Below, piece by piece: positions 4,860 through 61,820 of a DNA stretch of 64,000 bases. This stretch comes from Hydnum rufescens UP504. Its lineage: Eukaryota; Basidiomycota; Agaricomycetes; Cantharellales; Hydnaceae. Location of the stretch: contig MU128924.1 in assembly GCA_014904985.1 (NCBI GenBank), positions 252,036 through 316,035 of the forward strand. Reading direction: 5' to 3'. Numbering within the stretch: position 1 is the first letter of the stretch; every line of letters starts with the position of its first letter. The position numbers and the translations under genes are program-made. Below the pieces are notes generated by a model, which saw only the letters and a program-made list of their open reading frames with translations, was not told where the DNA came from and did no database searches.

Positions 4860-5720
4860 CATCACCACCAAGCTCTGCAATGCGGAGCATGATCAGTCTT
4901 GCGAACACCCTCTCTCATTTGATGACGGGCCCGGTCGCGGATTTCACTTCCCCGATCCTGATACGACATCGTCCCGGGGTGCTGGTATTTCATCCGAGAC
5001 GAGCGGTCACTCAAGTGGTCTTTGTCGCAACACCTTGTTTCCTCTTACTCCTATCATTCGCGTGGATGTCCTGGGGCATTACATCGTTGAGTGATCTGTG
5101 GATTTTGAGTCTTGGGACGGGTGCCGGATACGGGATGATCTGGCACGTCTAATTTTTCAACGCCTCTCGGCACCTACGTTCTCATACCTCCTCTCCCAAC
5201 AACATTTTTTTTTTGAATTTCACACTCTCCATTGCAGGACTGTGGTGCCATCGCTCACTGAAGCAATATGGGGCTCCAAACACGTAGCCCGGAACTTTGG
5301 CACAATTTTTCGTACGCGCCTTTCCTGGGCACTCCGACCTTCACGCTGCTGTACGCCGCGGTATCCGATCATGTTCGGCGCTCTCAGTCTGGGCAAGATC
5401 CCATATGTCGAGGGACGGGCTGCTGGACCCCTACGTTCATCGCCTGTACGGCGATATTATGCGGTGCGGGTGGCGACCTTCATGCTGTTGTATGCCGCGG
5501 TATCCGATCATGTTCGGCACTCTCAGTCTGGGCAAGATCCCATATGTCGAGGGACGGGCTGCTGGACCCCTACGTTCATCGCCTGTATGGCGATATTATG
5601 CGGTGCGGGTGGGATGTCTGGGCTTTTGTGGTGAAGGTGGGGATGGTGTGTGTGATCATGAGCGGGAAGTTCGTAGCCAGCCATCTTGGCAGCCTGGTCA
5701 GCCAATTATCGGCATCTAAC
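4860..5720 (+). pseudogene. Decayed MFS transporter, MCH1/monocarboxylate-transporter-like C-terminal half
   Basis: The plus strand encodes remnants of a major facilitator. At about 4880-5146 there is 'SLANTLSHLMTGPVADF', then a hydrophobic helix, then 'DLWILSLGTGAGYGM'. After an intron of about 90 nt (donor near 5147, acceptor TTGCAG ending at 5238) follow 'TVVPSLTEAIWGSKHVARNF' and, one frame over, 'YAPFLGTPTFTLLYAAVSD'. The order and the RNFG/GTP-type motif fit the fungal MCH1 group of the MFS. The gene is broken: the N-terminal half is missing, there is a frameshift near 5310, and an exon segment is duplicated in tandem (5336-5613). The copy ends against the inverted repeat at 5690. Confidence 0.6.
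5336..5613 (+). repeat. 139 bp tandem duplication inside the MFS pseudogene
   Basis: Bases 5336-5474 are repeated head to tail at 5475-5613. The differences I can see are all transitions, and most are C to T or G to A at CpG sites. That is the footprint of cytosine methylation and deamination acting after the duplication. The repeat shifts the reading frame and would by itself destroy the transporter. Confidence 0.75.
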
Positions 5721-5889
5721 TAGATACTTCAAAGGTTGCATTTATATGCTCTAACTAGATATCAGACCCAGGGGGCCCCCAGGGGCCCCTGCAATTCAGT
5801 TGAGGGGGCCGGTCAAGCAGCCCAGGGGCCCCTGGGGCCCCTAGCCATTAGGATTATTGATTTCATTATTTATTTATTTATTTATTTAT
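5690..5889 (+). repeat. Left terminal inverted repeat
   Basis: About 195-200 bp. In order it holds the CAGCCTGGTCAGCC tip, a copy of 'TCTAACTAGATA', a very GC-rich part with several GGGGCCCC palindromes, and a TTTA microsatellite. The right-hand copy repeats all of these in reverse complement, with differences mainly in microsatellite length. Confidence 0.8.
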
Positions 5890-6164
5890 TATTATTATAT
5901 ACACTAGGCTCGCCCAGTGGGGCTCACCCATGCACCCAAGAAGAGCAGCCAGAGGCTGCTCTTCTTGCGCAATGTAGCTAAGGAAAATAAATACTAGGGG
6001 GGACTCACCGTATATAGGGCCACTCGTTGGGCGCGTTCGGTTCTCGTCTGGTGAATTGCCGTTTGTCGCGTCGCCGTTTGGCGTGTTGTCTGTCCATTGC
6101 GTCGCCCTTTGGTGTGTTGCCATTTGGGCCTTGTTCGTTTTGCGGGTTTTCATTGTGGCACAAT

Positions 6165-6272
6165 CTAGAGTAATAATAAGATATATTAGTACAAATATCC
6201 AAAGCAGCGCAAAAAGAGCAGCTTTCGCTGCTCTTTTTGCGCGGGTGTAGCTACTGGGGTGCGGGGACTCAC
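6165..6272 (-). other. Predicted hairpin intron 1, 108 nt
   Basis: Donor AAG/GTGAGT at 6272, hairpin A at 6207-6242 (16 bp perfect stem, TTTC loop), branch site ACTAAT near 6185-6190, acceptor CTCTAG ending at 6165. The exon-like spacer 6164-6009 that follows is open in two frames, one reading 'NTPNGDATNGNSPDENR'. Confidence 0.6.
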
Positions 6273-6501
6273 CTTAAAATCGTACCACACACCCGCTACG
6301 GCGGGTGTGTGGTACCTGGGGTCCTCATTTGGCGCCTTTGCGTGTCTCGCGTTGGTGCGTGTCGCGTTGGTGCGTGTTGTGTGTGTTGCGTGTTGCGTGT
6401 TGCGTGTCTGTGTCTGTGTCGCGTGTCGTGTGGCGTGTTCGCATTACCTGCTCGGTCCCTCGTTGTTTCGTGGGTTTTCGTCGTGTCTTGGACAAGTCAA
6501 C

Positions 6502-6614
6502 CTAGAATAATAAACGAAATCGTTAGTATGAATATTCAAGCAATGCAAAAAGAGCAGCTCATGCTGCTCTTTTTGCCCACAAGAATCAGAAATAAAAATA
6601 AAAATAAAACTTAC
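6502..6614 (-). other. Predicted hairpin intron 2, 113 nt
   Basis: Donor AAG/GTAAG at 6614, hairpin A at 6545-6576 (14 bp perfect stem, TCAT loop), branch site ACTAAC near 6522-6527, acceptor ATTCTAG ending at 6502. The donor differs from its neighbours (GTAAG instead of GTGAGT) but is equally good. Confidence 0.6.
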
Positions 6615-6772
6615 CTTGGAGCACCCTACACCCGCTGTGGCGGGTGTAGGGTACTGGGAGCACGGACTCCGGCTCGTACGTATCGGGTTCTCCCTGTGCC
6701 CGTCGTTCGGGCGTCGATAAGGGGGGGTACGGGGGGTTCTGTGTCGGTATTGGTTCGCGAGAATGGTTATAC

Positions 6773-6878
6773 CTATAAAATAATATTGTTAAATTAGTTA
6801 AAAATTAAACACCACGCAAAAAGAGCAGCTTTCACTGCTCTTTTTGCGTGGTTGTAGCTACTGGGGGTGGGGACTCAC
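6773..6878 (-). other. Predicted hairpin intron 3, 106 nt
   Basis: Donor AAG/GTGAGT at 6878, hairpin A at 6812-6851 with a CCACGC/GCGTGG base, branch-like TAACTAAT near 6793, acceptor TTATAG ending at 6773. The stem base differs from that of intron 1 on both arms, so pairing is kept. Confidence 0.6.
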
Positions 6879-7202
6879 CTTATATGGGACCACACACCCA
6901 CCGTAGCGGGTGTGTGATTCCTGGGGCCCTCATTTGGCGTGGTCGCGTCCTCATTTGGCGCGTTGCCATGGGTCGCGTCCCCATTTGACGTGGTGCCGTA
7001 TTTCGCATCGTTGCCGCGTTGCTGGGGGTCGTGTCCTCTTTTGGCGCGGTGCCGTATCTCGCGTCGTTGCCGCGTCGCATCCTCATTTGGTGTGCTGCTG
7101 TATTTCATGCATTGGCCCCTTGCTGTGGGTCGCGTGTCGGGCTGCCGTTTGGGTTCTCGTTATTTCGCGGGCTATTCGTCGTGTGTTGAACGAAGCCTCA
7201 AT

Positions 7203-7309
7203 CTAGAATAATTAAAGTCGCAGTTAGTAAAAAGTTTCAAAGCAGCGCAAAAAGAGCAGCTTTCGCTGCTCTTTTTGCGCCGTCGTACCGTACTAGCAGA
7301 AAAACTCAC
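7203..7309 (-). other. Predicted hairpin intron 4, 107 nt
   Basis: Donor AAG/GTGAGT at 7309, hairpin A at 7245-7280 (16 bp perfect stem, TTTC loop), branch site ACTAAC near 7222-7227, acceptor TTCTAG ending at 7203. The spacer upstream in transcription (7310 onwards) carries hairpin B at 7316-7345. Confidence 0.6.
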
Positions 7310-7423
7310 CTTATGACCACACACCCGCGGTGGCGGGTGTGTGGTTGCGCGCTTGCCTTTCCAGGCGGTTGTTTGTTGTGGTTTTGGAGATGAGAAGAAA
7401 GATCTGAAATTCAACGCCGGCAA

Positions 7424-7639
7424 TTGCCGATACTCAAGAAGCGCCCAAGTGCTGACGCTACAAGCACAATACAGATTGATAGCAAGCATGTAGATGTGGA
7501 ATATAGACTATACAATAAATATTTGTTTAAAAATTGTGAAGAAGAGGATAAAAATGAGCCAGAGCTCAATAAGGGACGATATGCCTCATTGCAAAGTGGA
7601 TTAGATCACTTCTATGCATCAGAATTGGCCCAAATTTAA
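7424..7639 (+). CDS. Small plus-strand frame inside the hairpin array
   Basis: A 71-residue frame, open upstream to about 7410, lies on the strand opposite to the splice signals. It is hydrophilic, with an acidic stretch 'NCEEEDKNEPELNKGRY', and ends 'ASELAQI'. It replaces the usual short intron of its unit, stretching that intron to about 350 nt (7756-7404). A second copy at 7876-8147 has many single-base deletions. I do not recognise the family. It could be the tail of a transposase or a passenger sequence. Confidence 0.3.
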   Translation: MPILKKRPSADATSTIQIDSKHVDVEYRLYNKYLFKNCEEEDKNEPELNKGRYASLQSGLDHFYASELAQI

Positions 7640-7875
7640 ATATAGTGATGGTATATATACACCCTACATGGGCAACCAATTATAAAGAGAAGAGATAAAG
7701 AGTAGCTTTTGTGCTACTGCTTGTTTGCGCTATTGTAATCTACTGACAAAACTCACCTTATGACCACACACCCGCGTCCCCAGCAGTGGGTGTGTGGTCG
7801 TTGGTTGTGGGGTCGTCGTGTCGTCGTGGTGGGATCGTTGTCGTCTCTTCTGTTGCTGGTGTGGCTGCGTAGTTG

Positions 7876-8147
7876 CGAAATTCAACGCCGGCAATTGCCA
7901 TACTCAAGAGCGCCCAAGTGCTGACGCTACAAGCACAATACAGATTGAAGCAAGCATGTAGATGTGGAATATAGAATATACAATAATATTTGTTTAAAAA
8001 TGTGAAGAAGAGGATAAAATGAGCCAGAGCTCAATAAGGGAGATATGCCTCATTGCAAAGTGATTAGATCACTTCTATGCATCAGAATTGGCCCAAATTT
8101 AAATATAGTGATGGTATATATACACCCTACATGGGCAACCAATTATA
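7876..8147 (+). repeat. Near-duplicate of 7406-7683 with single-base deletions
   Basis: The two segments agree base for base apart from about ten one-base deletions in the second. Most fall in short homopolymers. This pattern, next to an N gap, looks like uncorrected long-read sequence placed by gap filling, not like evolutionary divergence. Confidence 0.6.
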
Positions 8148-8243
8148 TCAGACGATTCTGGCATTTTTCAATTTTTCCGCCTTCAATTCCTATTTAGGGA
8201 ATTGAAGGCGTGAAAAATAGAAAAATGCCAGAATCGTCTGATA
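8147..8243. repeat. 97 bp near-perfect palindrome
   Basis: Arms TATCAGACGATTCTGGCATT and its complement flank a second paired stretch, CCGCCTTCAATTCC with GGGAATTGAAGGCG, around a 6 nt loop TATTTA. It abuts the N gap, so it could be a real foldback or a read that turned back on itself. Confidence 0.7.
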
Positions 8244-8268
8244 NNNNNNNNNNNNNNNNNNNNNNNNN
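8244..8268. other. Assembly gap, 25 N
   Basis: Twenty-five N. Sequence resuming at 8269 repeats the inner edge of the left terminal repeat and the first hairpin (compare 5890-5967), so the true number of array units is uncertain here. Confidence 0.98.
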
Positions 8269-8559
8269 ATTATTATATTATTATACACTAGGCTTGCCCA
8301 GTGGGGCTCAACCCATGCACCCAAGAAGAGCAGCCACAGGCTGCTCTTCTTGCACGATTGTAGCTCCAGAAAAAAAACTTACCTTGAGAGTACCGCACAC
8401 CTGCCGCAGCGGGTGTGGTACTCGCACGTTCGCGGTTTCGTTCACGGGGTTTGGGTTCACTCGGTGGGTTTGGGGTCGCGGGGCTTCGGGTCACGGGTTT
8501 TGTGGTCGCGGGGTTTCAGGTCGCGGGTTTGGTGTTGGGGGTTCCTGCGGGTTCAAGAT

Positions 8560-8941
8560 CTAGAAAAAAGGTGTTAGTTAAACATTAAAGCATCGCAAGA
8601 AGAGCAGCTTACGACTGCTCTTCTTGCGCCGCAAAAAAAAAATAAAAATAAAGAAAAAACTCAGCTTGGAGTACCGCACACCCCCGCAGCGGGTGTGGTA
8701 CTCGCACGTTCGTGGTTTCGTTCACGGGGTTTGGTTTCACTCGGTGGGTTTGGGGTCGTGGGGCTCTGGTTCAGGTTTTGGTTCGCGGGGTTTCAGGCGC
8801 GGGTTTGGTGTTGGGGGTTCCTGCGGGGTTCAAGATCTAGAAAAAAAAGGTGTTTAGTTAAACATTAAAGCATCGCAAGAGAAGCAGCTTATGCTGCTCT
8901 TCTTGCGCCGCAAAAATAAAATAAAAATAAGAAAAACTCAG
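8560..8941 (-). other. Two hairpin introns with altered donors
   Basis: Two neighbouring units (8664-8560 and 8941-8837, 105 nt each) keep hairpin A, a CTAAC branch site and a TTCTAG acceptor, but read AAGCTGAGT where the other units have AAGGTGAGT. The change makes a CT donor, or at best a weak GC donor one base over. The two units are near copies, so the change probably came before their duplication. Confidence 0.45.
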
Positions 8942-9198
8942 CTTGGAGTACCACACACCCGCCACAGCGGGTGTGTGGTTCCTGGGGCCACTCGTTGGCT
9001 GTGCGTCGTTTCGTGGTCTTCAGTGGTCCTTCGCCCGTGCGGTGTTCGTTTGGCGTGTGGCCTTTTGGCGCGTGGTCACCGTCTTAGCTGTGTGTTCGTG
9101 TGGTGCGGCTGTCGTTTCAGGGGGCTCGGGGTTCATTTAGCGGTCTTTTACTTGGCGGGCGTCTGTTCCGTTCATTGGTTGTGGGTCAGCCAACAAAC

Positions 9199-9298
9199 CT
9201 GGAAAAACAGATACGTTAGTTTAGAAATTAAACCAGCACAAAAAGAGCAGCTTTCGCTGCTCTTTTTGTGCGGCTGTATCTATTTTGGGGGGGATCAC
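9199..9298 (-). other. Predicted hairpin intron, 100 nt
   Basis: Donor AAA/GTGATC at 9298, hairpin A at 9236-9271 with a GCAC/GTGC base, branch site ACTAAC near 9214-9219, acceptor CCAG ending at 9199. The GCAC/GTGC base is another compensated change relative to the GCGC/GCGC form. Confidence 0.55.
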
Positions 9299-9531
9299 TT
9301 TATATATTCCACACACCCCGCCGCAGGGGGTGGTTACTTGGGCACTCATTGGGCGTGTTGTCGTCCGTCCGGCGTCGTTTGTCGGTTGGCGCATTATTTG
9401 TCTGTCGCGTTGTTTGCGCATGTTGTTTAGGGTCGGTGTTCCCCGTCATTCCGGGTGTCGATAGGCAGGGGTTACGGGGGTTCTCGCCGGGGTATTCGTT
9501 TAGTCGCGGAAAGTAGGTGGCCTATAATGTA

Positions 9532-9635
9532 GATGGTATGTTATTAAGAGTGAAAGGACCACGCAAAAAAAAAAAAAAAAAAAAGAGCAGCTTTCGCTGC
9601 TCCCTTTGCGTGGCTGTAGTACCTGGGGGACTCAC
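9532..9635 (-). other. Predicted hairpin intron with long A tract, 104 nt
   Basis: Donor AAT/GTGAGT at 9635, hairpin near 9559-9612 with a run of about 20 A on one arm not matched on the other, acceptor TTATAG ending at 9532. The branch site is weak. This unit looks as if slippage expanded the A run of one hairpin arm. Confidence 0.45.
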
Positions 9636-9973
9636 ATTATATAAGTACCACACACCCGCCTGTTGGCGGTGTGTGGTTCCCTGGGGTTCGGCTCTTCATG
9701 TGGTGCTTTGGTCGCGTCTTTGTCTTTGCGCCCTCCCATTCCCGTACGGTTGCGTTGCCCTGTATTGTCGCATTTGCCATGTGTCTTGCGCTACGTGCGT
9801 CACGTCTTTTGATTTGGCGCATTGCGTTTGGCGCCGTTGCCGTATGTCGTATTACCGTTATGTCGGCGTCGCCGTGTGGCAGCGTCCTTGTTTTGTTGTT
9901 TCCATGTGTCGCATCCAATTTGGTCCCTCGTCGTTTGTTGGGTTTTCGTTGGCACTTGGACCAGGCTCTCAAT

Positions 9974-10093
9974 CTAGAATAAAACAATTCATGTTAGTAT
10001 AAAAATTCAAAGCAGCCGCATAATATAGGCAGCTTTCGACTGCTCTTTTTGTCGCTCATTGTATTCTATTTTGTATATATAAAACCACCTCAC
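9974..10093 (-). other. Predicted hairpin intron, 120 nt
   Basis: Donor AAG/GTGAGG at 10093, decayed hairpin A at 10013-10052, branch site ACTAAC near 9991-9996, acceptor TTCTAG ending at 9974. The spacer that follows in transcription (9973-9636) contains an arginine- and threonine-rich open stretch. Confidence 0.55.
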
Positions 10094-10156
10094 CTTTTGA
10101 CCACACAAACCCCGCAGGCGAGGTTGTTTGTATAATCTTTCATCTTCCTTTTTTTT

Positions 10157-10352
10157 AATAAATAAATAAATAATAATGAAATCAATAATCCTAATGGCTA
10201 GGGGCCCCAGGGGCCCCTGGGCTGCTTGACCGGCCCCCTCGACTGAATTGCAGGGGCCCCTGGGGGCCCCCTGGGTCTGATATCTAGTTAGAGCATATAA
10301 ATGCAACCTTTGAAGTATCTAGTTAGATGCCGATAATTGGCTGACCAGGCTG
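10157..10352 (-). repeat. Right terminal inverted repeat
   Basis: Reverse complement of the left terminal repeat, including the GGGGCCCC palindromes and the AATA microsatellite. Its outer tip interrupts the gypsy pol frame right after the codons for 'KIKNWPRPT', a place where the RT domain normally continues. Confidence 0.8.
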
Positions 10353-12843: not shown

Positions 12844-14488
12844 TCAGCAGGTAAGATGCCTGATTCTGGTTTTCATGCATTCAAAAAAGGAGTATTCGAT
12901 GGGTGGTGCTGGGACATTTTCAATTACTTGTTTTCTTTCTGGGACTGGGTTCACCTTGGGAGCAGCTGTTGGTTCAGCAGGGTGCTTGGGACGATTTTCA
13001 GAATTTGGTTTGGCAAGATTTCGAGGAGGGATTTCCACTGTGACCTTGTGATCTGGCAATCGACTAACTTTGTGTTCCTTGGGAGGCTCTACCATTGGGT
13101 GTAATCGAACATTTGGTTTCTCCTGCTTGGCTGCTGGATAAACCCTGTAGTCTGCTTCTATTGCATAGGCTCGTCCTTGGAATGGAGAATGACCATAGTC
13201 ATCTACCAAACTGCATGCTCCAGAGCGACTAGTGTTGGGAATATCTGATCCAAACCTCTTAATCTCATCTATAATAGCTTGCTTGAATCCTCCTTGGCCT
13301 GGGATTCCTCGAGGTAGTCTAGATCCATCCATCTTCACAAGCTGTCCTTCGATTGAGTATTTGATCAGATTCTGTCTGATCATTGCCTGGGCATCTGGAC
13401 AATTCTTCATGCCTACATTATGAGTTCCTACTTTATCACAGAACCAGCAAACCAAATTGTTTCCTGATCCTTCTGCTGATTTATTGCATGTACTGATTCT
13501 GAGGCATTCCAAGGGGATAGTTGTTAGGATATGTCGCAGGGCTAGAAGTTTGAGGGTGAATCTGATTACTGTTGGGGCGAGGGTTATCATTGGGCAAGGA
13601 CCTAGCAAAGTGGATCTTCATCTCATCAAATGACCTGGCCAACTCTCCTACTTGATCAGCAACATTTCGAATGGTAGGAATTACTGGTGCTTTATGATGC
13701 ACAACTGCCTTTTTGGGAGAAGTAGTTGCTCGTACTGGGACTTCACTATCACTGTCACTTTCTGGCTCCTTTGCTGGGGATTCATCATCTGAGGAGTCTG
13801 AAGAACTTGAGCTTGAGGAATCTGAATCTGATTTGTGCTTGTAATAAGACTTTTTCGCTTTAGACTTCTTGTGAGCTACCAACAACTTGCTGCTGGATTT
13901 AGGGAGGTGTCCTGTATTATAGTAAAGATCCTCAGTAACACACAGCTTGATACACTTGTAAGCAGCAGAATATTCCAGTGGTTTTGTAGGATCAAACCCT
14001 TTAGTCTCTCGTAAGTTTGGATATGCCACCTTCTGCAGTCGTCGAGGGATTCCTTGCCAGAACAGGTCATCTCGATCTCTGTCAGCAATTGTACCTTTCT
14101 TAGCAAGGTGTTGTACTTGTGTAACAAATTCTCGATAATATTCATCCAGGTCTGCCTCACTCTTGATGGATCTTGAATGGTAGCAGAACTTGGCCAACCT
14201 TTCTCGAGTATACTTTTGTCTCCTGTCACTCAAACCATAGAAGTCGCGAAGTCTCTCTGATAGGGCTTTGAAGGATCCTCCTTTTACTTCAGGAAGATTT
14301 TTAATTAGTTCTCTGGCATCATCATTGCAATACCTTGCTAAATTTTCACATTTCTTGATATCATCATACAGGGCTTCATCACAGCAGGCTTCATAGTCAG
14401 TGAGAAAGCTTTCAAGTCATTTGCCCTTGAAGTAAGGAGCATCCTTGGCAGATGGCCTAGGCATTGGTCTAGCAGTTGGGGTAGCCAT
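12844..14488 (-). pseudogene. gag: Gypsy Gag with zinc knuckle
   Basis: Starts at the ATG at 14488 ('MATPTARPMPRPSAKDAPYF'), but an extra A near 14420 shifts the frame after about 23 codons. The main capsid-like block lies at 14233-13481 and ends in an acidic serine-rich linker of the SDSDSSSSSSSDSSDDE type. A second frame, 13608-12844, carries a knuckle-like 'CWFCDKVGTHNVGMKNC' (C-x2-C, H, C) and 'SRLPRGIPGQGGFKQ', then a proline- and charge-rich tail. Gag would package the element's RNA into cytoplasmic particles. Two frame changes make this copy non-functional unless one is a programmed shift. Confidence 0.75.
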
Positions 14489-15460: not shown

Positions 15461-17239
15461 ACGCTCCACACGTGTCCCCAAACCGTCTCAATATGTGCAA
15501 CACCTTGCACAGGGCGAAGGTACAGTTCATGGATACACACACAAATCCGACTCTCAGATCCCTGGCGTCAGGGGGAGCAGTGATAATATCGGCAAGAATT
15601 CAGCATCTCTCGTAAATGATGCCGTATATCATATAGAATTTAACGACGCAGCTTTTGCAATGATTCAAGATATCGACGGTGATCCAAAATCTCTGGAAGA
15701 GGCGAAGTCACGAATGGATTGGCCACAATGGAAAAAGGCCATCGATATCGAACTCAAAACCATCAAAGACACCGGAACTTGGGACGAAGTACCAAGGCCA
15801 CCTGGCAAGAATATCGTCGATTGCAAGCTCGTATTCAAAATCAAACGAAAAGCTGATGGAACCATTCTAAAGTACAAGGCACGTCTAGTTGCCCATGGTT
15901 TCACACAGATTTATGGTGTTGATTACTACGAAACATATTCCCCCGTCACATGACTCGCAAGTTTTCGGACGATTATTGCATTCGCTGCCCGAAACAATTG
16001 GGATATCGACTCTTTCGATTTCAACGGCACATACCTCAATGGCGAACTTGACGAGAACAAAGAAATTTATATGAATTTCCCCCTGAGTACAGACCCCAGG
16101 GGGAGAATACAATCCTACGCCTACGGAAGACTCTGTACGGTCTTAAGCAAGCCGGACGGCGATGGTACGACTCATTATCCTGCGCACTCAATAGTCTCGG
16201 TTTTAGCGCAAGCCACGCCAATCCCGGTGTGTTCCGTACCCAGAAAGATGGGGAGGAATTAATTTTGGCAATCCATGTGGACGATTGCATGTTTACGGGC
16301 CCGTCAAGGGCATTGCTTGACAAATACAAGCAGAAAATCAACGAAAAGTACTCGATTACCGACTTAGGGCCACTCCATTGGCTACTCGGCATTAAAATCG
16401 AGCGAGATCATGAACTACGGACAATCCGATTATCACAGACATCGTACATTGACTTGATTGTTTCACAGTTCTCACTCAGCGACTCGAAACCCATTAATAC
16501 CCCAATGGAACCTGGGGCCACACCCACTCGAGAGGATTCTGCGATGAATCCCACAGATATCGAACGAATGAAGCAGACCCCCTATCACGAGGCCATAGGG
16601 AGCCTTATGTACGCATCCGTGGCCACGAGGCCGGACATTACTTTTGCGGTATCGACGCTATCGCAGTTCCTTGACAGGCCAGGACCCACACACTGGGAGG
16701 CAGCAAAACGAGTTATACAGTACCTATCAACAACGAAGAGTCTTAGCCTGACATATGGGTTAAAACAACACGACCTACTCGGGTACACGGATGCGGATGG
16801 AGCAACGCAGGAGCACCGTTGCGCAATAACGGGATACACTTACCTGATAGACGGAGGAACCATCTCCTGGAGCTCCCAAAAGCAGGAGCTGATCACACTC
16901 TTGACGGCCGAGGCAGAATATGTCGCCGCAACTCAAGCTGCCAAGGAAGGCATTTGGCTACGAGGCCTCATTGCCGAAATATTCCATACTCAACTCAAAG
17001 CCACAACTCTATATTGCGATAATCAAGCAGCGTTAAAGCTTGCAATGGGCGATAATTACCACACCCGGATGAAACATATCGATATCCGTTTTCATTTTAT
17101 CCGCGAGACGATTAAAGACGGCATTTTCAATTTGGTCTACTGTCCTACAGAGACTATGATGGCCGACATTCTTACAAAATCCCTCAGGGCAACAAAATTG
17201 AATTTCCACACCAAAGGACTCAGACTACGTCACACTTGA
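15461..17239 (+). pseudogene. pol: Ty1/copia polyprotein, RT and RNase H part
   Basis: The 5' end is removed by the gypsy LTR. The remaining frame starts in the integrase-RT linker, then RT with 'VARLVAHGF'-like block (here 'KARLVAHGFTQIYGVDY'), 'IHVDDCMFTG' as the catalytic x-V-D-D box, and 'SLMYASVATRPDITFAVS'. It continues through RNase H ('WSSQKQELITLLTAEAEYVA') to the end, 'GLRLRHT', just before the 3' LTR. Lesions are a TGA in place of an Arg codon at 15951-15953 (CGA to TGA fits CpG deamination) and a one-base loss near 16080 that shifts frame until about 16229. From 16229 to 17239 it is uninterrupted. Codons are GC-richer than the gypsy element's. Confidence 0.9.
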
Positions 17240-17870: not shown

Positions 17871-18763
17871 TAGTGTTGCCGCGGACTCGGACTTGAGGTG
17901 GCTTAAGTCCTGAGCCAGTCCGTTTCAAGTCGAGTCAAGTCAAGCCATCTGATTACAAATATTTGGTTTGGACTTCGCTTTGAGGGACTTCGCTTGACTT
18001 GAAGTGCGCTCAAGTCAAGACTTCAGTAGCCAATATATCCACATTACAATAATACAAAACTGAGCATCATGTATAGCTAGAGCAATATGGGGCCCAACAG
18101 GTGCTGCCCCAATGCAGTGGCAAATCATATAAAAACTGAATACAATCTTAATCCCGTTTTTTTTTTCCACCTTCCTACTATGTCAAACTCAAGGCAGTCA
18201 ATCGAGGAATCTCAATCTGAGGCTCAGAAGCATGCAAGGCTTGACATTGATCCTTGTTTAATTCCTCAGACACTATTTCCATCAACAAATGTAGTGGAAA
18301 CAGATCCAAGTGGATCCAGGCCATGTCCATCCCATGCGAGCGAGTATTTTCCTCAAGTTCCGAGACCATGACTAAAAGACGCAACTGCATCAAACCCGAG
18401 CTTATGGAAGCTTTACAGATGCTCAAGTTCATGCTCAAGAAACAGCGACTGAATTTTACGGATACCTGGGAGACACCGGTAGCTGAGATGCGGGATGACC
18501 ACGAGGATATGGGCGTGCTTGAAGACATATTGGGGGCTCAAGATATGGAGTTAGACAAGGTCCTGGAAACATTGGATGAAGAGGAATAGGAGAGTATACC
18601 TTCACCGCTCTCATTATGTACATATAGGACTCAAGTCAGCTTTGAGTCTAAGTCAAGTCCCAAATTTGGCTCGGACTTCGGAGATAAGTCAAGTCTCTCG
18701 GAAGTCCCGTGGAGTCGCCCGAAGCCAGTCTAAGCCGAGCCAAGCTGAGTCGCGGCAACACTA
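17871..18763 (+). mobile_element. hAT element, 893 bp, with exact 8 bp target duplication
   Basis: The ends are inverted copies, TAGTGTTGCCGCG on the left and its complement on the right. Directly outside both ends is GCCTTGTG (17863-17870 and 18764-18771), an exact 8 bp duplication as hAT elements make. Inside is the C-terminal dimerisation part of a hAT transposase. Repeated 'AAGTCAAGTC'-like motifs near both ends could be subterminal transposase-binding sites. The element is internally deleted and non-autonomous. It landed in the left edge of the gene-family array. Confidence 0.9.
18181..18589 (+). pseudogene. hAT transposase C-terminal dimerisation region
   Basis: Across two frames, the region reads towards 'SIPCERVFSSSSETMTKRR' and 'KPELMEALQMLKFMLKKQRL', the classic hATC dimerisation block with the conserved P-x-x-R-x-F-S and M-x-L-K motifs. 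It ends in an acidic tail ('LGAQDMELDKVLETLDEEE') and a TAG at 18587-18589. The catalytic core and zinc finger are absent and a frame change lies near 18300. It lies within the hAT element with matching terminal repeats. Confidence 0.85.
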
Positions 18764-19411: not shown

Positions 19412-20753
19412 ATGCCTGCTTCGTATTCGTTCGTTTGTTGTGCTTTGACTAAGGACGGCACCGGTCTGGCCAACATAGCCCAAAGGATATCCTTGGTCTG
19501 ATGGCTAATCTCCTTTCCATTTCAGGGCTACTTGCCCCCCGTCATATCCGCTAGTCATTCCATACTATCCCCCAAATTCCTTCGACCCGACTCCCGATCA
19601 GTTTCGCCCACGTCGAGTTATGCCAGCAATCCCTCGCCGTTGCAAGCGTAATCCTAGTGACTCCTGCCCCTTCTTCATTACCCCAAAGGCACATTCGCCG
19701 CCTGTAGTACAGACACCCGTGGTTCCCGCCTCCCATTGTATCTCTGCAACATTCAAAATCAAAGCCGAAACATGCTATGGTGCTCCTCCCGTAATTCTTC
19801 CACCGCTGCAAGCAGCAATGGCAGCCAGGTTGAGATCCAAACTTCATCTTCACACTCATGAGGGATCGCCGATCCGCCCACCTATTGTGCAACGACCTCG
19901 TAAAGCGGACTAAACTAGACAGCACTTCTCCCCGAACCAGGATTCTAACAGAGATTCTTAGGCACCCTCTCTTTTCGTATCGTTCGGACCGGTTTGCGCT
20001 GCGACCCGCTCAGCAAAATCCAAATGCACCGCAGGCAGCGCGGCTGCCAGTCCAGAGCGCTGTGGACTCGAATGCCGATTCTTATTCAGCTCCATCCCCA
20101 CACTTCCAGATGAAACCATAAGCAGAGCCCGGTAATGGAGTTCTTGCAGAGTATTCCGTCTGCTCCTCTGGCATCCCCTTGTCTCCGGGAAAACCAACGG
20201 CTGACGAAGAACCTCAATCAAATGTTTCTACGACATTGGCACGACCCGCATCTCCCGTCCGGCAAAATCCAAAATCACCGCGGGCACCATCGCCACCAGT
20301 ACAGAGGGCTGTGGATTCAGATGCCGGTTCTTTTTCATGGCCACTCCCACACTTCCCATATCCAGAACTCGCCGATTTGACAACGGATTTCTCAGCGAGG
20401 AGTCCGTCTGCTCCTCTGGCATCTCCCTTACCACCGAGAAAACCTACGGCTGGTGAAGAACCCTAATTGAATATTTCCCCGACATTGGCACGACCCACAT
20501 CTTCCACTCCGCAATATACAAATTCACTGCGCGCAGCGCCACCAGTACAAAAGGCTGTGGATTCGGATGCCGATTCTTATTCAGCACCATCCCCACATTC
20601 CCTGTCGAGAATGAGGTAGAGGCTCTGCTAACGGATTTCTCCCAAGAACAGTCCGTCTGTTCTGGCGTCGCCCTTGTCTCTGAGAAAGCCTACGGCTGAC
20701 GAGAACCGCTACTAAATGTTCCTACGCTACTGGCACCGAGTTCCCAGCCGTAA
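19412..20753 (+). pseudogene. Array gene copy A (alpha type), broken
   Basis: First member of the family. The tiny first exon ('MPASYSFVCCALTKDGTG') is present, but the donor that reads CAG/GTCAAT in the other copies is changed to CTGGCC, so the conserved 57 nt intron could not be cut normally. Exon 2 starts 'GGCTACTTG', as in the alpha copies C and G, but a C-run of altered length shifts the frame early. Three modules with motifs like 'VDSNADSYSAPSPH' follow in mixed frames, and a TAA closes the copy. A partial 3' block lies after the stop (20760-20990). Function unknown; this copy is not expected to make the full protein. Confidence 0.65.
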
Positions 20754-22150: not shown

Positions 22151-23985
22151 ATGTCTTGTTCGTGTTCGTTCGTTTGTTGTGATTTCACCAAAGGCGGCTC
22201 GGCTCAGGTCAATATGGCTTGGAGGATACCCTTGGTCTGAAGGCTTATCTCCTTTCGATTTCAGCGCCACTTCACTCCTGGGTCACTGCCAGGCATGCCA
22301 TACTATCCCCCGGTTTCCCTCTACCCGACTCCCGATCAGTTTGACCGACAGCGAGTTATGCCAGCAATCCCTGGTAGGTACCAGCCTAATCCTGATGGCC
22401 CCTCCCCTTCCTTATTCCCTCCAAATGTACATCCCCCCCTGTAGTATGGGAACCTCCGGCTCCTTATGTCTCGCCTCTAATTCGATCTCAGAGATACCCA
22501 AGAGCAAGCCCGGAACCTGTTAAAATACCCTCTCCTGTAGTTCTTCGGCCGCCACAACCGCAGTGGCAGCCAGTTGAGGTCCCAACTTCGTCTCGACCTT
22601 ATGAGGGGTTTCCAATCCCTCCACCTATTGCCCAACGACGTCGTAAAGCGGATCGAACTAGACATCGCTCATCAGCGAACCGGGATTCTGACCGTGATGT
22701 TCACGCCTCCTCTCGCCCACATCGTCCGGACAGATTTGTGCCACGACCCGCATCTCCCCCTCAGCAAAATCCAAATTCACCACGGGCAGCACGACCCCCA
22801 GGACAAAGGGCTGTGGACTCGGATACCGATTCTTATTCGGCTCCACCCCCACACTTCCAGATGGAACCACCAGCAGAGGTTGCGATTCCGATAATGGATT
22901 TCCCACAGAGCTTTCCGTCTGCTCCTCTGGCGTCCCCCTTGTCTTCGAGAAAGCCAACGGCTGACGAGGAACCCCAATTGAATGTTTCTACGACATTGGC
23001 ACGACCTGCATCGTCCATTCGGCAAAATCCAAATTCACAGCGGGCACCACCGCCACCAGTACAAAGGGCCGTGGACTCGGATACCGATTCTTATTCAGCT
23101 CCATCCCCACAGTTCCCATTAATAGCCCTTGCCGATTCGATAATGGGTTCCTCGCCGAGCAGTCCGTCTGCTCCTCTGGCGTCGCCCTTGTCTCCGAGAG
23201 GAGCCTAGTGGCTGATGAAGAACCCCAATTGAATATTTCTACCACAGTTGGCACGACCCACCATCTCCCGTTCGGAAAAATCGAAATTCACCGCGGGCAC
23301 CACCAGCCACCAGTACAAAGGCCTGTGGATTCGGATATCGATTCTTTTTCATTGCCACCCCCACACTTCCTATATCCAGAACTTGCCGATTTGACAACGG
23401 ATTTCTCAGCGAGCAGTCCGTCTGCTCCTCTGGCATCTCCGAGAAAACGTACGGCTGATGAAGAACCCCAATTGAATGTTTCCACGACATTGGCACGACC
23501 ACCTCTCCCGTTCGGAAAATCGAAATTCACCGCGGGCACTACCGCCACCAGTACAAAGGCCAGTGGATTCGAATGTCGATCCTTATTCAGCACCATCCAC
23601 ACACTCGCAGGAGACACTATTAGCACGGCATGCGTCTCTGGTAAGGAAATTCTTGCAGAGCCTTCCGTCTGATCCTCTGGCGTCCTCTTTGTCTCCGGGA
23701 AAGCCTGAGGGTGATGAAGAACCCCAATTGGATGTTTCTACGACATTCGCACGACCCACATCTTCCACTTTGCAAAATCCAAATTCACCGCGGGCAGCGC
23801 CACCGGTACAAAAGGCTGTGGATTCAGAGACACTATTAATACGGCATGCGTCTCAGGTAAGGAAATTCTTACAGGGCCTTCCGTCCGATCCTCTGGCGTC
23901 CCCCTTGTCTCCGAGAAAGCCTACGGCTGCCGAAGAACCCCAATTGAATGTTTCTACGCGACTGGCACTGAGTTCTCAGCCGTAA
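22151..23985 (+). pseudogene. Array gene copy B, five repeat modules, broken
   Basis: Exon 1 is 'MSCSCSFVCCDFTKGGSAQ' (22151-22207). The 57 nt intron 22208-22264 starts GTCAAT, has a GGCTTATC branch-like site, and ends TTTCAG. Exon 2 opens 'RHFTPGSLPGMPYYPP', but a frame change follows within about 60 codons ('FPPNVHPPL' then stop). Downstream are five modules in changing frames, with 'VDSDTDSYSAPPPH', 'VDSDTDSYSAPSPQ' and 'VDSDIDSFSLPPPH'. This is the longest module run in a broken copy. The N terminus mixes alpha and beta features, which suggests recombination between types. Confidence 0.65.
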
Positions 23986-36373: not shown

Positions 36374-38113
36374 ATGCCTTCGTGTTCGTGCCTTTGTTGT
36401 GATTGGACTATGGGCGGCACTAGTCAGGTCAATGTGGCATGAAGGGTACCCTTGGTCCGAAGGCTAATCTCCCTTCGATTTCAGCGTTACTTCACCCCCG
36501 GGTCATATCCAACAGCCATGCCCATGCCATACTATCCCCCAGTTTCTTTCGACCCACCTCCAGATCAGTTTCACCGACGTGGAGTTATGCAACCCATCCG
36601 CGGTAGTAGTTCCGATGGCCCCACCCCGACTTCATTGCCCCCAAAAGCACACCCACCGCCTGTAGTATCTCCGGAATCCCTTGAACCATTGCGAAAGCCT
36701 GTTGTAATCTCTCCTGTGATTCTTCCGCAATCACAACCGCAGGGGCCGCCAGTTCACATCCTGCCTTCACCTCGGCCTAGTGTGCGGTCGCCGACCCAGG
36801 CATTTAAAGCCCAACGATTACGGACACGATCGCCACGGACACCGACGTCGCGGGAGCAATCACCACGGAGACGACGACCGTCACCGGAGCGATCGCGACG
36901 AATACAAAGGATTGGGGATTCGGACGCCGGTTCTTACTCTCCACCATCCCCACACCGTCGGGAGAAAGCATCAAGCCGGCGCCCGGCCTCGGGAACGGAT
37001 TCTTCACAGAGCAGTCGGTCTGGTTCTCCAAGAAAGCCTGTGGCTGACGAGGAACTCCAATTGAATGTTTCTACGACACTGGCACGGCCCACTTCTGCTG
37101 TTCACGCAGGTCCAAATTCACTGCGGGCACCACTGCCACCAGTACGAAGGGCCCCAGATTCGGACGCTGATTCTTATTCACCACCACCCCCACACCGCTT
37201 GGAGAGACCATTAGCACACAGCCGGGATACAGCATCAAGCCGGCATTCGGCCTCGGGAACGGATTCCTCACAGAGCAGTCCGTCTGGGCCTCCAAGAAGG
37301 CCTGCGGCTGATGAGGAACTCCAATTGAATGTTTCTACATTGGCACGACCTACATCTTCCCCTCAGCCGAATCCAAATTCACCGCGGGCATCACTGCCAC
37401 CAATACAAGGGGCTGTGGATTCGGATGCCGATTCTTATTTACCACCATCCCCACACCTCCGGGAGGAAATGGCAAGCCTGCGTGACGCCTCGGGAACGGA
37501 TTCTTCACAGAGCAGTCGGTCCGGTTCTCCAAGAGAGCCTGTGGCTGACGAGGAACCCAAATTGAATGTTTCTACATTGGCACGACCCGCATCTTCCACT
37601 CAGCAAATCTAAATTCACCGCGGGCATCACTGCCACCAGTACAAAGGGTTGTGGATTCGGATGCCAATTCTTATTCACCACCATCCCCACACCTCCGGGA
37701 GGAAATGGCAAGCCTGCGTTACTCCTCGGGAACGGATTCTTCACAGAGCAGTCCGTCTGGTTCTCCAAGAGAGCCTGTGGCTGACGAGAAACCCAAATTG
37801 AATGTTTCTACATTGGCATGACCCGCATCTTCCAGTCAGCCAAATCCAAATTCACCGCGGGCATCACTGCCACCAGTACGAAGGGCTGTGGATTCGGATG
37901 CTGATTCTTATTCACCACCATCCCCACACTTGCGGGCGAAACCATTACCAGAGCATGCGGTGTTGATAACCGATTTCCCACAGAACAGTTCATCTAGTCC
38001 TCCGGCGCCCCCCCTGCCTCCGCGAACGCCCACTGCTGCGAAGTACCCCCACTCACTATTCTACGCTATCCTCACCTGTTTCTACACCCCTGGTACCGGG
38101 TTCTCAGCCGTGA
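36374..38113 (+). CDS. Array gene copy H (beta type), five modules, late frameshift; first 393 aa intact
   Basis: Exon 1 (36374-36427, 'MPSCSCLCCDWTMGGTSQ'), intron 36428-36484 (57 nt, contains an in-frame TGA, so splicing is needed), exon 2 open from 36485 to 37612 (375 codons). Parts in order: 'YPTAMPMPYYPPVSFDPPPD', proline-rich linker, RS-rich tract ('RSPRTPTSREQSPRRRRPSP'), then modules with 'GDSDAGSYSPPSPH', 'PDSDADSYSPPPPH' and 'VDSDADSYLPPSPH'. A missing base after 'ASSTQQ' ends the frame, and two more modules (to 38113) lie beyond it in another frame. Without that lesion it would be the longest member, above 500 residues. Disordered composition; function unknown. Confidence 0.55.
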
Positions 38114-44509: not shown

Positions 44510-47189
44510 AAAGCCACTACACAAGGTGTAGCCTGGCATTCTGCTCAAAGTGTGGATAAGACCCCAAAAAGGGAGAGAAAGGAAGAGTGAAACTACAGGG
44601 GACCCCATAGAATAAAAGACCCCCACTGAATGGAAAGCCATGACACTAAGTGTAGCCTGACATTCAGCTTGAAGCCTTGAAGTGAAGAGGAAGGTGGCCA
44701 GCAAAAAGAAAGAAACCAAGGGGAAGGAAACCAAGAACAAGTGAGGGGTGCCCCAGAAAAGACAAAGCCCACTCCTGCTGAATGGAAAGCCACAACACTA
44801 GGTGTAGCCCAACATTCAGCTCAAAGTGAGGTGATGTTGAAAAACACTGGCAATTGCTGGGGGACTCAGCACCAGCAATTGCTGGCATTCACTAAGTGCC
44901 CAAGTGCTGTGCAAAACCAAGCCACAAACCTTATATACTGCTGTAATATGGTTACATATGCTTTCATCCTCTGTCCCCCTATCTATTTGGTATGGGTAAT
45001 GTGCCAAAAGTGGCCTAATTCATTTCCTTTGAGGTATTGAATTACAAGTACTGCTAAAAAATAACATCTTGGTAGGTGACTCTGAAACTTAGGATGTGAC
45101 TAGGGATTATTTAGGTGAAACCATATCAAAATTTCAGCCAAATCTGTCCAGTAGTTATTGAGATACAAAGTACACATGTTTTGACATTGAAAATGGATTT
45201 ACTGCCCTTACAGATCAGGTAAAGACTTGAAAATTTGCATGTGACAGGGCACCATGGTGAATAAATCACATCCTGAATATCAGCCTATTCATTTCACTTT
45301 TATGCATTCAACTGCCTTGGCAAGCAACAAGGGAACAACAACCTACCATGAATGTGAACCACTCCATATCAGACCTAAACTAGGTGGAATAGGCTTAAAT
45401 TATTGCAACAATGACTATATCCAAAAATGGAATGAATTGGATGTGTGGAAGTGGCTGAACTTGAGGGGGGGGGGATCAAAAGTGAATTACATAGGATGTA
45501 GAGCAGAGCAGCCTCTGACATTATGCTGCTAGTAAAATAGGTATATGGGAAGTACACATGCAATATATGAGTCTAAGTGGACTCCATTTAGGCACTGTTT
45601 CACAGTCCTCCTCCCAAAATAACACTTTCCCCCCCAGAGCCTTCCACCTGTTCAATTGCCTTGAAAGTCCACACTTGGATCATCCAAATACATTCACAAC
45701 ACCCCTTCAAGTTTCAGAATGATGGGCCTAATATCTGAGTTTCCATAATATGTTTGAGTTCCACCAAAATACATCCTCCAGCTGAGACATTTCCACAGCT
45801 CCAATCACTCTGATTTTTTGTAGGTCACAGCTGGCCACCATTTGAGGCTCATCCTCAAATGGTGGCCAGCTGTGACCTACAAAAAATCAGAGTGATTGGA
45901 GCTGTGGAAATGTCTCAGCTGGAGGATGTATTTTGGTGGAACTCAACATATTATGGAAACTCAGATATTAGGCCCATCATTCTGAAACTTGAAGGGGTGT
46001 TGTGAATGTATTTGGATGATCCAAGTGTGGACTTTCAAGGCAATTGAACAGGTGGAAGGCTCTGGGGGGGAAAGTGTTATTTTGGGAGGAGGACTGTGAA
46101 ACAGTGCCTAAATGGAGTCCACTTAGACTCATATATTGCATGTGTACTTCCCATATACCTATTTTACTAGCAGCATAATGTCAGAGGCTGCTCTGCTCTA
46201 CATCCTATGTAATTCACTTTTGATCCCCCCCCCCTCAAGTTCAGCCACTTCCACACATCCAATTCATTCCATTTTTGGATATAGTCATTGTTGCAATAAT
46301 TTAAGCCTATTCCACCTAGTTTAGGTCTGATATGGAGTGGTTCACATTCATGGTAGGTTGTTGTTCCCTTGTTGCTTGCCAAGGCAGTTGAATGCATAAA
46401 AGTGAAATGAATAGGCTGATATTCAGGATGTGATTTATTCACCATGGTGCCCTGTCACATGCAAATTTTCAAGTCTTTACCTGATCTGTAAGGGCAGTAA
46501 ATCCATTTTCAATGTCAAAACATGTGTACTTTGTATCTCAATAACTACTGGACAGATTTGGCTGAAATTTTGATATGGTTTCACCTAAATAATCCCTAGT
46601 CACATCCTAAGTTTCAGAGTCACCTACCAAGATGTTATTTTTTAGCAGTACTTGTAATTCAATACCTCAAAGGAAATGAATTAGGCCACTTTTGGCACAT
46701 TACCCATACCAAATAGATAGGGGGACAGAGGATGAAAGCATATGTAACCATATTACAGCAGTATATAAGGTTTGTGGCTTGGTTTTGCACAGCACTTGGG
46801 CACTTAGTGAATGCCAGCAATTGCTGGTGCTGAGTCCCCCAGCAATTGCCAGTGTTTTTCAACATCACCTCACTTTGAGCTGAATGTTGGGCTACACCTA
46901 GTGTTGTGGCTTTCCATTCAGCAGGAGTGGGCTTTGTCTTTTCTGGGGCACCCCTCACTTGTTCTTGGTTTCCTTCCCCTTGGTTTCTTTCTTTTTGCTG
47001 GCCACCTTCCTCTTCACTTCAAGGCTTCAAGCTGAATGTCAGGCTACACTTAGTGTCATGGCTTTCCATTCAGTGGGGGTCTTTTATTCTATGGGGTCCC
47101 CTGTAGTTTCACTCTTCCTTTCTCTCCCTTTTTGGGGTCTTATCCACACTTTGAGCAGAATGCCAGGCTACACCTTGTGTAGTGGCTTT

Positions 47190-59446: not shown

Positions 59447-61820
59447 AATGGCTAGTTCCGGTGTCAAGTTCATGCTCCATGGGTGGGACATGTCAGCCAG
59501 CTAAGAAGGCCAAACTCACTTTCACTCATGACTTTGAGCTCCAAAGTCAAGCCACTGTCCACCATATCTCCACTACTTCATCTGAATCTGTCCTCACCTC
59601 TGATCATCTCATTGTTCCAGTGACTCCTGATAAACCCACGAGGCCCAACTACTCACACTTGTCCCCAATTTCTGGTCCAGATTTTGGTCAGGACATCCCA
59701 GGCAATAATGATGACCTTGGCACTGTGCACTATCTACCAGGTCCTGCCTCACACAAGCATTATTCCAATACAGTGTGTTTTTCTCTACTGCATGGTTTTC
59801 ATGCATTGAAATAATGTTTAGGATGAGCCCCTGAAACAATGGAAACCCCTGCAAGATGAGTACCTTGATGCCTTGCTGTTCTGTGATGGCAGACAAGGCT
59901 TCTCATCTGGATCATGTGAAGAATGCTGTGATACTAATGTACAGGCTATTTATCGGTGTCAACAGTGCTTCAATGGAGGTCTACTGTGTCAGAATTGTTG
60001 CGTTAATCATCATCACCACCTCCCTCTACATCAAATCGAGGTAGGCCTATGTATTTCTTCATATTTTGATGTTTGTATTTTGACTTGTCTCATGCATCCA
60101 ACACAAAAGACATGGGACAGCGGCTGCTTTGAACACACAACCCTTTTTGAGTTAGGCCTTGTGGTACAGCTTGGCCATGGCAATTGTCCCTCCCCAAATC
60201 TGAAGAAAGGCGCATCGTCATTCACTGTAATTCACATAAATGGCCTTCACAAAGTTTTGATTTATTTTTGTGATTGCTCTACTGCTCCTCATGCTCATAT
60301 CCAACTACTCCATTCTGGTTGGTTCCCAGTGACTGTTGTTTTGCCACAAACATGCGCTACTTTCAACATACTCCGCCACTTCCATCTCCTCAGTCTTCAG
60401 TCCAAATTATCTGCGCACCAGTTCTACTGTGCACTCAAAAGGGGGACCAACAATACTGGCTTATTGAATCTGCAGGTGATTTCCCACTCGCCTGTTCATT
60501 GCCTGGTACTCATTACATCCCTCAGACATGATATGTTTCCTTCCTTTGCATTATCCATGAATGGCAAAATCTCAAATTATTGAAGTGTGGTGGATGTGCA
60601 CATGACCCAAGTGGTACTGATGGCATGAAACCTGGCAAACTTGCGATTACATGTCCTGCGTGCCCTGATCCAGATATAAACCTCCCCCCCCAATTGGGAG
60701 AAATCACCTCAGGAACTTCAGTGAGTTCATAATGTTTAGGATGCCAGAGTGTTTTACGTTATAATCCTGGGCAGATATCTATACACATACTTTCAGGCCA
60801 ACGACGCCAATTTTCATTTGAAAAATTGTTTGAATACTGTCATTGATGTTGATCTCGGGACCAGATGGTCATATTTTGTTGAGAATGAGCCCTACAAATG
60901 ATTTCTTGCACAGCAAGGTGCCCAGACCGAGGTAAGCCTTGTCTGAGCCACGTCTTGTTCACTATTAACCCGCTTACATAGATGTCGACTTGCAGTGGCC
61001 TTGCTGCAATTGATCATGCAAATACGAAGAATTCTAAGGGTCTCCACATTACTGGGGTGGGGGCTTCAATCTGCACACATCATGGGTTTCTTCACCCTCT
61101 TGGAATAGGCAACCTCCAGAAGGGCGAATGGTATGTTGATCAGATGTCCATATACAGTCCATGATGGGCTCAACATGATTTCAGCTTTTCCAATATGGAT
61201 TATATCATATTTTCCACACTCAGAGGCTATTCTCCACCATCGCTTGCGCTTTCATATGATCTCATCTGCCAATACTGGACAAAAATTAGGCAATGCATGC
61301 CCTGGCTCCCTCCTGAACTGTGGGTTGATTTGGACAAGCTCTCAGTCAAACTCTTTCTTCCCAAGCTCCATGCACTTGCCCATAAATCTGAATGCAGTGT
61401 CTTATATTCCCTTAATTTCACCCCTGGTGTTGGTTGCACAGATGGTGAAGGCATTGAATGGGAATGGGCGGAGATTAACATCGCTGCGAACAGTACAAAG
61501 GAGATGAGTGAGGGTGCATGTCATGATACATTGGATGATCTTCTCAGTGACAAGAATTTCTGGAAGGAAATTGGGTTAGGTGGGTTCCCTTGTCATCTTA
61601 CTTTTTTTTGACTGATGTTGCACCCTCTTATGCAGGGAAATCTCTTCTTATGAAGCTGAAGACCACCCAAGTTGAGAGTGCAAAGCATGTCGAACAGTTC
61701 AAGTCATTTACAGGTGGACTGGACCCAGCGACAGTTTGAGAGTATGAGAATGCTATATTGGCATGGGAAGCAGATTGTTCCAAGCTGAATCCCTACTATG
61801 TTAGGTCTTCGTGTGAGTAA
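59447..61820 (+). pseudogene. KDZ transposase with CxC2 domain, decayed and 3' truncated
   Basis: A multi-exon transposase of the Kyakuja-Dileera-Zisupton group, abundant in mushroom genomes. The first exon (to 59772) is hydrophilic. After a 49 nt intron (59773-59821) comes the CxC2 zinc domain, with 'SCEECCDTNVQAIYRCQQC' and 'LCQNCCVNHHHHLPLH'. After a 69 nt intron (60041-60109) follow 'WDSGCFEHTTLFELGLVVQL' and 'CDCSTAPHAHIQLLHSGWFP'. Later exons contain 'GMKPGKLAITCPACPDP', 'NDANFHLKN' (first catalytic Asp), 'ALSYDLICQYW' (second Asp) and 'TDGEGIEWEWAEIN' (Glu). Stops and one-base shifts occur near 60580, 60895 and 61160. An L2 LTR begins 75 bp past the last recognisable codons, so the C terminus is lost. 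Confidence 0.9.

Follow-up and report, generated by a model that had tools for sequence, protein, structure and literature searches.

The described systems closest to the element reported here, which lies in a 64,000-nucleotide stretch of the genome of the basidiomycete Hydnum rufescens UP504 (C16:252036-316035, the window; positions given without a contig are those of the window), are transposons of the KDZ superfamily. KDZ1 of Cryptococcus is ~11 kb long, with 241-bp terminal inverted repeats (TIRs) and 8-bp target site duplications (TSDs), and the TSDs of KDZ2 and KDZ3 measure 4 to 8 bp (PMC12810828). TSDs of 8 bp are also given for Zisupton, and Kyakuja of Laccaria bicolor, a member of the KDZ group with 5'-CA..TG-3' termini, is described as having a 7-bp TSD and no TIRs and as encoding a transposase and TET/JBP; the word "hairpin" is absent from the main text of that paper (PMC12730594). 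In yeast introns such as that of RPS17B, a "zipper stem" between donor and branch site shortens the branchpoint distance (PMC2536676). Introners have been described as non-autonomous DNA transposons with intron features that form single introns in genes (PMC9860276).

The element in the window carries an array of hairpin-bearing units on the minus strand. It resembles KDZ1 in its 8-bp TSD and its long termini (181 bp here and 241 bp in KDZ1) but differs in that no protein gene was found in it, its left (L) and right (R) ends are only partly alike, and its interior is made of two outward-pointing arms of predicted hairpin introns. With Kyakuja it shares the CA..TG termini and, probably, the KDZ group. 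Yeast zipper stems occur in single host introns, and each introner forms just one intron of a host gene, whereas here the introns are serial, lie within a transposon, and number ~9 to 11 by prediction per element. Foldback-type elements have arms with repeats in inverted orientation, as is the case here, but in the present element the arms run apart from a palindrome at the center, and its two ends are not the same sequence. Searches of an open-access library, a scope that excludes subscription journals and Repbase, turned up no transposon described as gene-less and built of serial hairpin introns. The interior of the element is unusual and testable. Our preferred reading, to which we assign a probability of roughly 0.66, is that the array makes up the inside of a non-autonomous cut-and-paste transposon of ~4.75 kb, probably moved by a KDZ transposase, in which the hairpin units are predicted to be serial introns.

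The array forms the inside of a family of DNA transposons ~4.75 kb long. In the genome, of 63.2 Mb, the hairpin core has 3,206 matches (1,595 + 1,611, with up to 2 mismatches). The L end stops at an identical base, with the border CAGCCTGGTCAG, in 30 loci, the two ends in the window included. By eye, the flanks beyond these borders differ, except that L010 and L011 have a common flank; L013, L016, L025, and L038 adjoin other copies of the transposon family. Elements begin with CAGCCTGGTCAGCCA and end with GGCTGACTGAGTTG or GTGCTG. The whole genome contains 101 L ends (49 + 52, up to 3 mismatches) and 146 R ends (65 + 81, up to 2 mismatches). When 100 listed L ends were compared with 100 listed R ends, 35 pairs were less than 16 kb apart, 28 of them at 3.4 to 5.7 kb, and the median length across the 35 pairs among these listed ends was 4,750 bp; two of the longest pairs reuse an R end that belongs to a nearer L end. 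An exact 8-bp TSD is present in 12 of the 17 pairs whose flanks were read. As for the other five, the C17 pair matches at 7 of 8 bases, the pairs in C151, C135, and C157 are without a TSD, and the left end of the C120 pair was unread. The empty site of the C56 copy is present in C337. The family has the features of a non-autonomous cut-and-paste DNA transposon, namely, fixed termini, TSDs with an empty site, and, in the four arms of two elements that were tested, no transposase of its own.

At C1:912642-916924, L and R ends flank an inverted piece with the junctions ATGAAAAC and its complement GTTTTCAT, an inverted 8-bp duplication that is expected from transposition using reversed ends. At C187:34570-39155 and 39167, two elements stand head to tail with 11 bases between them, an insertion beside an existing end. 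An element with two identical long ends was also considered and rejected, the R end being a different, partly similar sequence.

Splice signals were sought around 255 unique hairpins that had 250 nucleotides (nt) on both sides and had been selected without the use of splice motifs. In 151 of the 255 hairpins, the donor motif GGTRAGY occurs in one orientation at 12 to 80 nt ahead of the loop, compared with 4 of 255 when the interval was shifted by 120 nt. Of these 151 donor-bearing hairpins, 123 are accompanied by a branch site and acceptor on the strand of the donor and 10 by such a pair on the other strand. The median intron is 105 nt long, and the median distance from donor to branch site is 84 nt, or 48 nt once the stem-loop is subtracted (n = 135 for each). 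A second hairpin, hairpin B, which was absent from the preliminary description of the window, immediately precedes the donor: of 161 donor units, 118 can form at least 10 of 12 Watson-Crick pairs within the 62 nt that precede the donor, versus none of 161 shuffled sequences and 12 of 153 stretches lying farther upstream. At a threshold of 8 pairs or more, the counts are 147 of 161, 43 of 161, and 61 of 153, respectively, and 136 of the 147 hairpins B end 4 to 11 nt before the donor. The order of a full unit is hairpin B (at the end of the exon), donor, hairpin A, branch site, and acceptor. Donor, branch site, and acceptor stand in order on one strand, as in spliceosomal introns, and we infer from these signals that the hairpin units are spliceosomal introns removed from RNA.

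Within the window, the minus-strand array (5904-10093) has 12 hairpin-A positions, at 5937, 6207, 6545, ~6830, 7245, ~7700, 8322, ~8610, ~8890, 9236, ~9585, and ~10036 (13 motif matches, of which that at 7914 is spurious). A donor-like motif, G[TC][AG]A[GT][TCG], precedes hairpin A in 10 of the 12 units, and the remaining two read GCTGAGT at this position; a branch site and acceptor follow hairpin A in 10 of the 12, one of which (7612) is doubtful, and are missing from the terminal-type units 5937 and 8322. Several units are without one of these parts. The six introns of 100 to 120 nt that the preliminary description had named are all present (Table 1), and its four stem variants (GCGC/GCGC, CCACGC/GCGTGG, GCAC/GTGC, and CAAGAAG/CTTCTTG) were confirmed. 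Its donor was given as mostly AAG/GTGAGT; the donor at 9298 is GTGATC and that at 10093 is GTGAGG. In the intron at 9974-10093, hairpin A has decayed. Five window introns have fold z-scores of -4.6 to -10.0, and a scan of the window against Rfam gave no match at the gathering score.

Two complete copies, C56:73598-78060 and C69:126087-130860, have a palindrome at their center (~1.25 kb at 86% in C56 and ~1.0 kb at 91% in C69), with the units on either side directed outward; C1:368710-374716 and L039 likewise contain a palindrome in their middle. In the unit closest to the L end, a donor is present and an acceptor is missing. In the right arms, 5 introns (C56) and 6 introns (C69) were used for splicing in silico, and in the left arms, 4 and 5; in these spliced arms, the exons are T-poor (9 to 13%) and the introns T-rich (33 to 42%). 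Among the four spliced arms of these two elements, none has a longest open reading frame (ORF) clearly above chance in comparison with shuffled sequences (P = 0.61 and 0.16 for the right and left arms of C56 and 0.06 and 0.53 for those of C69), one antisense intron call per left arm having been removed before the test. The C69 stretch used for the ORF and intron analysis is offset by 30 bases from the true element, and its intron borders are rough because several donors picked by the script fall inside hairpin B (GGGTGTGTG). Within the window array, three plus-strand ORFs of 161 to 186 amino acids (aa) gave no match to Pfam.

The window copy is a mosaic. The preliminary description had taken the units for a single tandem array, and a series of 12 hairpin units on the minus strand is indeed present; it consists, however, of the arms of two transposon copies. 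Positions 5690-7684 correspond to the left arm of the copy at C1:370210, at 96% and with the order kept, and 7697-8243 matches the center of that copy in reverse; 8269-10155 resembles the left arm of a second copy. The two 181-bp ends, 5690-5870 and 10172-10352, are inverted copies of each other with 99% identity. The sequence adjoining 10352 occurs uninterrupted in C209 (copia-like by eye). Since the end at 10172-10352 stands on the opposite side compared with C209 and with the order in C170, an inversion or an assembly error must have occurred here. The central palindrome region of copy 1 is a possible bidirectional promoter. A short palindrome, TATCAGACGATTCTGG...CCAGAATCGTCTGATA, lies in this central region at 8146-8243, and a similar hairpin is found at the center of the C56 copy (2271-2334 of L053).

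Table 1. Features of the two transposon copies in the window
Feature	Position	Strand	Details
Left (L) terminus of copy 1	5690..5870	+	181 bp, begins CAGCCTGGTCAGCC at 5690
Copy 1 unit 1, terminal type	5904..6012	-	Donor-like site 6008, hairpin A 5937-5967, no acceptor, then AATAAA-rich tail
Predicted intron, copy 1 unit 2	6165..6272	-	Hairpin A 6207-6242, 16 bp, GAAA loop
Hairpin B directly upstream of donor 6272	6284..6313	-	
Predicted intron, copy 1 unit 3	6502..6614	-	Hairpin A 6545-6576
Hairpin B of copy 1 unit 3	6623..6652	-	Arms ACCCTACACCCG/CGGGTGTAGGGT
Predicted intron, copy 1 unit 4	6773..6878	-	Hairpin A 6811-6852
Predicted intron, copy 1 unit 5	7203..7309	-	Hairpin A 7245-7280
Hairpin B of copy 1 unit 5	7316..7345	-	
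Central palindrome region of copy 1	7407..8243		Arms 7407-7684 and 7876-8243, rearranged relative to C1:368710-374716
Decayed copy 1 unit 6	7701..7756	-	Donor 7756
25 N separating copy 1 from copy 2	8244..8268		Assembly gap or masked letters
Copy 2 terminal-type unit	8269..8382	-	Donor 8382, hairpin A 8322-8352, no acceptor
Two copy 2 units	8560..8956	-	Hairpins near 8610 and 8890, donors GCTGAGT, acceptors 8560 and 8837
Predicted intron, copy 2	9199..9298	-	Hairpin A 9236-9271 (GCAC/GTGC)
Predicted intron, copy 2	9522..9635	-	Hairpin A ~9585-9602
Predicted intron, copy 2	9974..10093	-	Hairpin A decayed
Second L terminus, inverted	10172..10352	-	Ends 10352

Pairing is kept in the stems of hairpin A. 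From 274 unique hairpins, 27 that could not be oriented and 81 of the 247 oriented ones that were without a strict donor were set aside, and the 166 donor-bearing units were grouped by average linkage into 37 classes, of which 9 with loops of other than 4 nt were omitted. In the inner 13 pairs of the remaining 28 classes, 356 of 364 positions are Watson-Crick pairs, 1 is G-U, 2 are A-C, and 5 are other combinations; shuffling of the partners gave 331.6 +- 2.3 Watson-Crick, 9.8 G-U, and 10.6 A-C pairs, and none of 2,000 shuffles reached the observed pairing, a comparison in which ancestry is treated via one consensus per class only. A second Watson-Crick type occurs at 7 of the 13 inner pairs (pairs 4, 5, 6, 8, 10, 12, and 13). 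At pairs 14 to 18, G-U is at chance level and Watson-Crick pairing slightly above it. These figures bear out the compensated change reported in the preliminary description, and its proposal of a structured non-coding RNA fits the changes on both sides of the stem beyond those in shuffles. Single copies, for the most part, probably decay without selection. The loop of hairpin A is A-rich on the sense strand of the intron, and GNRA loops are found in 12 of 28 classes on the sense strand and in none of 28 on the complement (109 and 2 of 204 units, respectively). Their near restriction to the sense strand speaks for RNA, although the bias may come partly from common descent of GAAA. An excess of U-G closing pairs (26 versus 2 C-A, in 4-nt loops) was rejected as proof of RNA selection, as CpG decay of C-GAAA explains it equally well.

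The transposase is probably of the KDZ (Zisupton) type, acting on ends that begin with CAG, judging by terminal sequence and TSD length. A KDZ family is present in C56, C337, and C164 (PF18758, 3e-43, with CxC1 and CxC2 in the C56 copy), and the one end of it that was located, CAGGCTGGTCAGCCA, agrees with the L end of the hairpin element at 14 of 15 bases, the R end being less alike; these 15 bases of the KDZ end also occur 2.5 kb past a KDZ match in C260. The 8-bp TSD of the KDZ superfamily is likewise found here. At least 154 KDZ domain matches are present in the genome (150 of 584 candidates scored). The hairpin element of C56 lies within a KDZ element, into which it was inserted with an 8-bp TSD, so that the transposase there is a neighbor's and not its own. 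Three candidates were rejected. Assigning the C56 transposase to the element itself, as a gene with hairpin introns in its untranslated regions, conflicts with the C337 and C164 copies, which have no hairpins. A link to a host TET/JBP yielded one weak Tet_JBP match and none above the cut-off. C6:202944-213974 was not accepted as a proven autonomous member: its 4 ORF pieces (L103/L104) have no Pfam match and its R end was not located, and a search with one of the ORF pieces gave 22 candidate places and no second full copy. In L103/L104 (C6:202900-213400), an L end and 4 hairpin units are followed by minus-strand ORFs, and the C6 ORF nearest to the KDZ match is similar, by eye, to the C-terminal portion of the KDZ ORF in C56; this may be an autonomous relative.

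Under the preferred reading, the central palindrome would act as a bidirectional promoter. Each outward transcript would be a non-coding RNA with U-poor, A/C-rich exons, most of them ending in hairpin B, and would be cut by ~4 to 6 spliceosomal introns in which hairpin A separates the donor from the branch site. Like the yeast zipper stem, this hairpin may act by shortening the path between these two sites. The spliced RNA would most likely serve to protect the transcripts or a state of expression (intron-dependent expression or escape from silencing), rather than hairpin A serving as a transposase binding site. A more far-reaching version, in which a gene-less transposon is amplified in the form of two non-coding RNAs that diverge and are spliced serially, and in which repeated splicing through stem-shortened introns is itself selected, for example, for escape from splicing-coupled silencing or for a locus open to a transposase supplied in trans, we consider doubtful.

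Several observations weigh against the reading of the array as serial introns of a KDZ-moved element. It is drawn from sequence, from which we infer transcription and splicing. No strict donor is present in 104 of the 255 hairpins, as would be so in decayed copies. The donor-to-branch-site distance is no less variable once the stem-loop is subtracted (the standard deviation goes from 11.4 to 14.3), and control of distance is therefore compatible with the data and not proven. With respect to coding capacity, the C69 right arm has a 130-aa ORF (P = 0.06), and the C56 left arm, when its antisense intron is included, has one of 215 aa (P = 0/300). Within a single element, the L end is only partly like the R end, and the R end agrees with the KDZ end at just 10 of the 15 terminal bases by eye. 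There is no proven autonomous member, the C56 KDZ gene belonging to a separate element and C6:202944-213974 being a single case, and the hAT dimerization domain Dimer_Tnp_hAT has 90 matches in the genome, those listed all being above the cut-off. Finally, selection on RNA alone should favor G-U, and G-U is not clearly more common than A-C: the counts are 61 versus 43 in 246 single units, 32 versus 40 when the closing pair is left out, and 1 versus 2 in the inner 13 pairs of the 28 classes; for hairpin B, they are 68 versus 62 (147 units) and 10 versus 9 (36 classes). The closing pair excepted, G-U is not better tolerated than A-C in the sense-strand stems, as would be expected from either a strand-blind process or very strict pairing.

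A strand-blind process is the core of the strongest alternative, a real though lesser possibility, in which the palindromes are kept at the DNA level by arm-to-arm template-switch correction or by a need for cruciforms, and RNA structure is not selected. The almost strict Watson-Crick pairing of the inner 13 pairs (356 of 364, with 1 G-U versus the 9.8 expected by shuffles), the parity of G-U and A-C in hairpin B, and another perfect palindrome in the window, with a 94-bp stem at 45754-45946, are what such a process would produce. It would not account for the fixed place of hairpin A within an intron frame on one strand, nor would a strand-blind DNA process be expected to give A-rich and GNRA loops biased to the sense strand, although GAAA ancestry explains part of this bias. 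Selection on RNA structure and DNA palindrome correction were the two causes put forward in the preliminary description; the data on stems and loops do not tell them apart.

Movement by a hAT rather than a KDZ transposase is unlikely. Elements of the hAT superfamily have 8-bp TSDs and CAG ends, so that TSD length and the CAG terminus fit both superfamilies, and the 90 Dimer_Tnp_hAT matches show hAT domains in this genome; what speaks for KDZ is that a KDZ element in this genome has 14 of the 15 terminal bases in common with the hairpin element, as does the end near the C260 KDZ match.

We regard as still less probable the explanation that the hairpins are repeated sub-terminal binding sites for a transposase and that their intron-like look is a by-product. 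Sub-terminal repeated motifs are known from Ac/Ds and Spm, and the hairpin elements are comparable in that the core GAGCAGC...GCTGCTC is nearly invariant and many hairpin copies lie between the ends in both arms. Sites recognized by a protein, however, keep their sequence, which leaves compensated double changes such as GACCAGC/GCTGGTC unexplained, as it does the donor and acceptor that flank the hairpins on one strand. The notion of an introner-like system, raised in the preliminary description, in which the hairpin intron is itself mobile and seeds host genes, has in its favor an intron-like unit with 3,206 core matches but is highly improbable, since the 6 sampled hairpins that seemed to stand alone all proved to belong to arrays of 3 to 6, the 8-bp TSDs flank the whole ~4.75-kb element as the mobile unit, and unit order is kept between copies (window versus C1, 96% over 2 kb).

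Elsewhere in the window, matches were found on the plus strand to the CxC2/CxC1 cysteine cluster of KDZ transposases (59873-60583), to RVT_2 (copia; 16229-17239), and to a hAT dimerization domain (~18314-18433; C16:270349-270468), and on the minus strand to DUF4100, slightly under the cut-off (12844-13608); the window is therefore transposon-rich. Three tandem arrays (20059-20707, 22742-23822, and 37250-37936) have units of 236 to 258 bp with a similar-looking consensus and are possibly coding repeats. The 94-bp-stem palindrome at 45754-45946 has a spacer of 5 nt and may be a recent foldback or an assembly artifact.

With ~3,200 matches to one hairpin of intron design, the genome of H. rufescens offers a data set for intron structure and for the evolution of splicing. 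If these units are spliced, splicing would be useful to a selfish element beyond the making of protein, and the family raises the question of why a transposon without genes keeps introns.

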